DNA from: Candidatus Levybacteria bacterium RIFCSPLOWO2_01_FULL_38_21
GTDB lineage: Bacteria; Patescibacteriota; Microgenomatia; Levybacterales; UBA12049
Assembly (NCBI GenBank): GCA_001782475.1
Contig: MFOT01000026.1
Coordinates: forward strand, 1 to 39,997
Direction: 5' to 3'
DNA: 39,997 bases
Made by a program: the position numbers and the translations under genes. Within the stretch, counting starts at the first letter, position 1, and the number at the start of each line of letters is the position of its first letter. This document shows positions 31,043 through 32,156 of the stretch, piece by piece. The notes under the pieces are model-generated. The model ran no database searches. It worked only from the letters and a program-made list of their open reading frames with translations, and was not told the DNA's origin.

Positions 31043-31623
31043 AAATCTAATTTAACCGCTCCCTGTCTTAAAATTTTCCAAGGCTTGACCGAACAGTCAA
31101 TAATCGTAGAGGGTTTTTTATAACTTCCTGTATTCCCCGATAAAAGAAGATCCACCTGCGAAATTAAATCAGGATTTAAATCCTCGAATCTAAAAGGTGT
31201 TTTTTTTCCCTGGAAATTTGCAGAAGGCCCCAAAAGAGGAACTCCAACCTCTTTTATTAAAAGCAGTGCAGTCTTATGATTTGGAACTCTTATTCCCAAA
31301 GTTGTCCCACCTCCCCTAACCAGAGAGCTTACTTTTTGTAGATTGGCTTTTAGTACAATTGTTAAAGGCCCGTGCCAGAATTTTTTAATAAGTTTGTTCT
31401 TAACATCTTTACTAATCGGCCATGCATATTTCTGTGCCATTTTAAGACTATCAGCCAAAACCAAGACTGCTTTGTTTTTTGATCTTTTTTTAATCTTGAA
31501 TAACTTTCTTACTGCTTTATTATTATCCATCCTGCAACTAATAACAAAGGTCGTGTCAGAGGGAAAAATAACAATACCACCCTGTTTTAATATTTTTATT
31601 GCTTGTTTTATGTTGTCTTTCAT
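31039..31623 (-). CDS. tsaC: L-threonylcarbamoyladenylate synthase (Sua5/YrdC/TsaC)
   Basis: KQGGIVIFPSDTTFVISC, KIKKRSKNKAVLVL, GPLTIVLKA, LGIRVPNH, LLGPSANFQGKKTP. Confidence 0.93.
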   Translation of the reverse strand: MKDNIKQAIKILKQGGIVIFPSDTTFVISCRMDNNKAVRKLFKIKKRSKNKAVLVLADSLKMAQKYAWPISKDVKNKLIKKFWHGPLTIVLKANLQKVSSLVRGGGTTLGIRVPNHKTALLLIKEVGVPLLGPSANFQGKKTPFRFEDLNPDLISQVDLLLSGNTGSYKKPSTIIDCSVKPWKILRQGAVKLDL

Positions 31624-32156
31624 AATTTTTGATTGATTGTTATTTTTCTTCTATTCCTTCCCAAATCTTCGAATTTTATATCCCAACTTTTTTTTGGCAA
31701 CAGACTTTTCATTTTCTCTGCCCATTCAATCGCAACAACACTGTTTTGATCCTCCAAAATTTCTCTTAATCCCAGTCCTTCAATTTCTCGTTGATTTTCA
31801 ATTCGATAGAGATCGACATGATAAAAAGTGTTACACCTTGGAGGAGTCGAAGGTCTGATGCCTTCGCCACCTCCGAGGTGGCCGAATGGACTCCTCAGAG
31901 GTGAAACTTTATATTGACGGACAATAATAAAAGTTGGGGAAATAATTCTTTTTTTGATGCCAAATCCTCTCGCCAGCCCTTGCACAAAAGTTGTTTTTCC
32001 GCTGCCAAGATTTCCATAAAGAGCAACAACTCCGCTTCTTGACAAAGATACTCCTTGCACGAGGCTGGCAAGGATACTCCTTGCAAAATTCTCACCTAGG
32101 TTTTGAGTTTCTCCAGAATTATTTGTAATGAAAATGTTCTGTTTTGTTTTATTCAT
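31620..32156 (-). CDS. tsaE: tRNA threonylcarbamoyladenosine biosynthesis ATPase TsaE
   Basis: ALYGNLGSGKTTFVQGLARGFGIKKRIISPTFIIVRQY ... FYHVDLYRIENQREIEGLGLREIL...VAIEWAEKM. Confidence 0.92.
   Translation of the reverse strand: MNKTKQNIFITNNSGETQNLGENFARSILASLVQGVSLSRSGVVALYGNLGSGKTTFVQGLARGFGIKKRIISPTFIIVRQYKVSPLRSPFGHLGGGEGIRPSTPPRCNTFYHVDLYRIENQREIEGLGLREILEDQNSVVAIEWAEKMKSLLPKKSWDIKFEDLGRNRRKITINQKL
31834..31903. repeat. RPE-like palindromic element inserted in tsaE
   Basis: Outer arms CACCTTGGAGGAGTC/GACTCCTCAGAGGTG (13 of 15 paired); inner hairpins GAAGG/CCTTC and GCCACCT-CCG-AGGTGGC. Confidence 0.85.

Follow-up and report, generated by a model that had tools for sequence, protein, structure and literature searches.

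An in-frame palindromic repeat in tsaE of a Levybacteria genome belongs to a family whose palindrome also flanks RAYT transposase genes

The window (the whole stretch of 39,997 nucleotides of Candidatus Levybacteria DNA that was analysed) contains tsaE, an essential tRNA-modification gene, with a palindromic insert visible on inspection of the sequence (Table 1). The open reading frame has 195 aa and matches Pfam TsaE in two stretches (E = 1.4e-32). The preliminary description of this DNA, made from the sequence, placed the palindrome at these coordinates and reported 15-nt outer arms enclosing two hairpins in a three-way-junction layout. The coordinates and the letters agree with the sequence, 13 of the 15 arm positions pair, both inner hairpins are exact, and the junction is predicted by RNA folding on both strands (-43.7 and -40.7 kcal/mol; z = -5.9 and -5.4), with equal stability in none of 200 shuffles. 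The minus-strand reading frame stays open across the element, so the insertion is in frame as had been claimed. The anti-Shine-Dalgarno heptamer CACCTCC occurs, together with its complement GGAGGTG, in the core palindrome (e.g., at 31868-31880); this may be a coincidence.

Table 1. Features of the tsaE locus in the window and copies of the element in the source genome
Feature	Coordinates	Strand	Remarks
tsaE, host of the insert	31620..32156	-	178 aa from ATG; ORF, Pfam TsaE, fold kept in the model
Palindromic element	31834..31903	.	70 nt; read in TsaE as VSPLRSPFGHLGGGEGIRPSTPPRCNT including its edges; absent from 22 relatives
Left outer arm, CACCTTGGAGGAGTC	31834..31848	+	degenerate core CACCTTGGAGGAG at 31834-31846
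Inner hairpin 1	31849..31865	+	GAAGG-TCTGATG-CCTTC
Inner hairpin 2	31866..31882	+	GCCACCT-CCG-AGGTGGC; contains exact core CACCTCCGAGGTG at 31868-31880
Right outer arm, GACTCCTCAGAGGTG	31889..31903	+	near-core CTCCTCAGAGGTG at 31891-31903
Element copy in tsaE			source genome; read through in frame
Element copy in a membrane ORF of at least 575 aa (L009)			source genome; read through in frame
Element copy in proS (L010)			source genome; read through in frame
Element copy in an ATP-dependent DNA ligase gene (L011)			source genome; read through in frame

The alignment with TsaE of 22 family members confirms the place of the segment between SPTFIIVRxYK and FYHxDLYR: the relatives have a loop without it, and the gap lies between the invariant SPTF...RxY and YHxDLYR. 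Considering this loop, the element amounts to about 22-24 inserted codons. The structure model with the insert retains the TsaE fold (best Foldseek match 5np9, TM 0.70/0.81), and the insert maps to residues 84-109, a lower-confidence stretch between two strands. The length of this loop varies among other family members. Unrelated palindromic repeats lie in frame at the same loop in TsaE of four other genomes (L191, L193, L195 and L204 of G005, G056, G032 and G013, respectively); one of them, CTGCCTGCCGGCAAGGCAGG, is read as LPAGKAG, and another is CCCGCTTCGCAGCGAGGCGAGC. Since such unrelated repeats occupy the same loops of TsaE and TopA elsewhere, we consider these loops to be general tolerance sites. 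The window also contains a likely second in-frame insert in tsaE (32045-32090, minus strand), a GCAAGGAGTATCCTTGC hairpin followed by the direct repeat TGCAAGGAGTATC; it adds residues near 32-43, which most relatives do not have.

The search for copies in the source genome (787,844 bp, 98% complete) found further ones, likewise in frame within long ORFs. Four elements built on CACCTCNGAGGTG are present there in unrelated genes (Table 1; the names of L009-L011 come from reading the translations and not from a family search), and a second site matches the tsaE element over 38 nt at 92% (E = 8e-10). All five exact copies of CACCTCNGAGGTG in this genome lie inside the four elements; ACCTCNGAGGT cores number seven. 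The linker of the proS copy (around 1055-1090 of L010) contains a further repeat-like stretch, CGCCCGGCGAAGCCTTGGCGAAGCGAGG, as though elements were nested.

Judging from these copies and from those in other genomes, the tsaE insert can be assigned to a repeat family based on a paired 13-bp palindrome, CACCTCNGAGGTG. The family scan (one genome per species; the pattern was two nearby cores) gave at least 102 stretches. The matches listed are mostly from Microgenomates (including Daviesbacteria, Curtissbacteria, Woesebacteria, Gottesmanbacteria, Roizmanbacteria and Beckwithbacteria), plus some Omnitrophota and scattered others. At least about 80 further copies belong to Microgenomates/Patescibacteria, and most of them run in frame through ordinary genes. 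The hosts placed by Pfam are SecA, UvrD, UvrA, TopA, DNA polymerase IV, PurL, the CCA-adding enzyme, TsaD (in two genomes), a MurD-like ligase, TatD, a RadA-like protein, a P-type ATPase and tRNA synthetases. The elements are 34-72 bp long and consist of two or three 13-bp palindromes with a variable linker; in most pairs one core has C as its central base and its partner has G. Across 19 genomes there are 2-44 ACCTCNGAGGT cores per genome, compared with 0-3 for the reversed control; exact pairs reach 19 in G076, the maximum, and 10 in G073 (control 0). Many family members hold no elements at all. In Omnitrophota the paired palindromes (L060, L061, L068, L100, L105, L143, L147) are in open ORFs in 4 of 10 cases, less often than in Patescibacteria.

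Rfam has no match for the element. Six matching stretches were found in viral contigs, and those read bear no sign of phage origin. An open-licence, incomplete literature collection yielded nothing on Patescibacteria together with RAYT/REPIN or palindromic elements. The in-gene elements have no unpaired GTAG or CGTC tag at the hairpin foot and no conserved tetranucleotide guide beside them, positions -8 to -1 and +1 to +8 being unconserved except for a terminal preference; no target-site duplication above 1 nt was observed.

Among the matches listed, 58 of the 77 classifiable copies in Patescibacteria are enclosed by an ORF that the element does not interrupt (random positions, 84.5%), and in seven the same strand is coding on both sides but out of frame. 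Among copies in ORFs of 150 aa or longer, 52 of 60 have a core-to-core length equal to 1 modulo 3; for copies elsewhere the figure is 12 of 21 (p = 0.01). The prevailing reading frames are TSEV and HLRG/HLGG; the third codon phase is rare (4/56). The frame in use is free of stops, which is partly conditional on the choice of the ORF; of the 112 alternative sense frames, 49 are interrupted by stops. Empty and filled sites can be compared in TopA of the Daviesbacteria family: at two loops the element is present in some genomes and nothing is present in most others, which gives each site a patchy distribution among relatives. At the second TopA site the size of the insert is the core-to-core length plus 2 nt, which fits the excess of 1 modulo 3 lengths in long ORFs. 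In UvrD, the same site in L122 (3254-5263) and L151 has the linker in opposite orientations in the two genomes (reverse complement); this suggests inversion in place or independent insertion.

At orthologous sites the linkers diverge more than the cores. In the tRNA synthetase pair L104/L106, 26 of 26 core positions, 12 of 23 linker positions and 90 of 120 flank positions are identical; at TopA site 1 (L278/L294) the figures are 25/26 for the cores and 12/23 for the linker. The TopA copy in L294 was not found by the pattern; all other compared pairs are biased because they were found through exact-core patterns. Of the 44 cores in G076, 38 belong to exact pairs and another two flank a RAYT, so few partners have decayed, and the linkers of the 49-nt class have a mean mutual identity of 56%. 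Continuing recognition, gene conversion or a young age are possible causes of the core fixity.

RAYTs are Y1 HUH transposases. Y1_Tnp genes are present in all 18 element-bearing genomes, hence their mere presence says little. A matched 13-bp palindrome is found on both flanks of 14 of 73 RAYT ORFs; among 262 control ORFs there are three such cases. Two of the 14 (L130, L138) were found by the pattern, and the same loci supply two of the three control matches. The ACCTCNGAGGT palindrome stands on both flanks of eight RAYT genes and on one flank only of none; for six of the eight, the genomes were chosen for the element and the RAYTs were not chosen by their flanks. Five of the eight, taken from five element-bearing genomes, group in a single clade (SH-aLRT 97). 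The palindrome common to the elements and to these flanks points to REPIN/RAYT biology. The RAYT flanks have an additional CACSTAGGG-like motif near the core, which the in-gene copies do not have. The source genome has five RAYTs, and ACCTC flanks are absent from all of them. This genome also contains eleven CACCCCNGGGGTG palindromes outside long ORFs; four of them flank two RAYT genes (C20:4411-5191 and C2:27841-28609). These palindromes make up a REP-like family of the classical kind alongside the in-gene one. Among 45 genomes of the Daviesbacteria family, paired elements occur in 13, the exact ACCTC-RAYT upstream signature in 9, and both in 5 (Fisher p = 0.09); this co-presence is a weak association, suggestive only.

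We presume that the element is probably a non-autonomous, REPIN-like element of the RAYT type, whose insertions survive when they are in frame and in surface loops; we consider this the best explanation. The family, the insertion of its members in frame in conserved genes, the empty sites and the palindromes around RAYTs can all be read from the sequences compared. The basic unit is two CACCTCNGAGGTG palindromes (or the half-variant CTCCTCNGAGGTG) in inverted register with a short linker between them; the tsaE copy has three. This REPIN- or BIME-like unit would be moved in trans by transposases of the RAYT type (Y1, HUH), and palindromes of the same class stand on both sides of the genes for these enzymes. 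The enzyme would recognise the hairpins in single-stranded form, and the insertion would proceed into single-stranded DNA without target duplication, striking genes about in proportion to gene density. The survivors would be those inserts that add a multiple of three (core-to-core plus 2 nt), have a stop-free frame and fall in tolerant surface loops; these would be translated as an additional peptide of 12-25 residues. From the data above we infer the catalysis by RAYT, the single-stranded intermediate and the translation of the peptide.

The most serious competitor, which we find rather unlikely, is a selfish palindromic element spread in frame as in Rickettsia independently of RAYTs (by template switching at hairpins, gene conversion or another transposase), its likeness to RAYT flanks being that of the same simple palindrome. 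It agrees with the absence of an ACCTC-flanked RAYT from the source genome and from several element-rich genomes, e.g., G073, and with the CGTC REPs, including Rickettsia RPE-4 and RPE-6, which have no dedicated transposase (PMC3733652). Against it, exactly this palindrome is on both flanks of eight RAYTs, far above chance, and five of them are a clade.

The core fixity can also be expected of a functional DNA or RNA signal under selection (a recombination, uptake or regulatory site), in which the cores are fixed and the linker drifts; the paired cores and dissimilar linkers of G076 and the TopA copy in L294 speak for such a signal. The patchy presence among relatives, the many family members having none and the low counts per genome make it improbable. 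DNA uptake sequences have copy numbers far above 2-44 per genome; a sequence of this kind is ruled out by copy number and patchiness. The strong hairpin within an essential gene could suggest an intervening element that is translationally bypassed or spliced from the RNA and never enters the protein; lengths biased towards keeping the frame are not needed for bypass, and the stop-free frame (subject to the ORF choice mentioned) is a further argument against it. Bypass or splicing is thus disfavoured by frame and length, and we give it very little credence. Least credible of all is an ordinary lineage-specific extension of the TsaE loop that is palindromic by chance: the loop is indeed variable in length in other family members, but three further genes of the source genome and many genes of relatives carry this element, which refutes the reading, and the fold z-score opposes it as well.

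The preliminary description called the element RPE-like. The name correctly describes its mode of action (in frame, absent from orthologues, in several unrelated genes); the description missed the paired 13-bp palindromes and the RAYT flanks. The likeness to Rickettsia elements drawn here is one of behaviour. Rickettsia palindromic elements are described as about 150 bp long and encoding a conserved peptide (Ogata 2000 and 2002, via PMC10969869); they share with the present element the palindromic repeats in frame in unrelated housekeeping genes, the tolerated extra peptide and the absence from orthologues, whereas the Patescibacteria element is shorter, built of 13-bp palindromes with a variable linker, and has its palindrome at RAYT flanks. 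The REPs of the GTAG and CGTC superfamilies that lie within genes are short palindromes, mostly inverted dimers, encoding 20-30 aa, and Rickettsia RPE-4 and RPE-6 are CGTC REPs with no known transposase (PMC3733652). Many hosts in both cases are replication and repair genes (uvrA and uvrB for REPs; uvrA, uvrD and topA for the Patescibacteria element); REPs are mainly intergenic and tagged with GTAG or CGTC, whereas our element is mainly intragenic with no tag beside the stem, and its palindrome flanks RAYTs, unlike that of the CGTC REPs without a transposase (PMC3733652). REPINs, which are linked to RAYTs, consist of two REPs in inverted orientation (PMC3116915). They resemble our element in the inverted palindrome doublet, the hairpin or clover folds and the same palindrome at RAYT gene flanks, but are extragenic, while the Patescibacteria elements are in frame in coding sequence and have fewer copies (PMC3116915, PMC6006769). 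Thus, the family has the repeated short palindrome, mostly in inverted doublets, that defines REPs and REPINs, and shares it with the flanks of eight RAYTs outside the source genome; its location is not mainly extragenic, considering the 58 of 77 copies in open ORFs. With no tag and no extragenic habit, the element is placed outside the defined REP families, though it behaves like intragenic REPs and REPINs.

To our knowledge, in-frame palindromes have been known for 25 years mainly from Rickettsia, and no enzyme has been shown to move them. An equivalent family is now found in a very large bacterial radiation, and its palindrome is common with a defined clade of transposases, which brings the origin of protein-coding palindromes within reach of a test; a transposase gene beside the same repeat in relatives may be what moves it. 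Streamlined genomes evidently tolerate repeated insertions in core proteins. It is tempting to propose, although we hold this only as a tentative and rather doubtful extension, that a RAYT lineage of Patescibacteria keeps a population of protein-coding REPINs with invariant cores and hypervariable hydrophilic linkers, mainly in essential genes; new peptide loops would then be steadily written into housekeeping proteins, and the cores would stay intact through continuing recognition.
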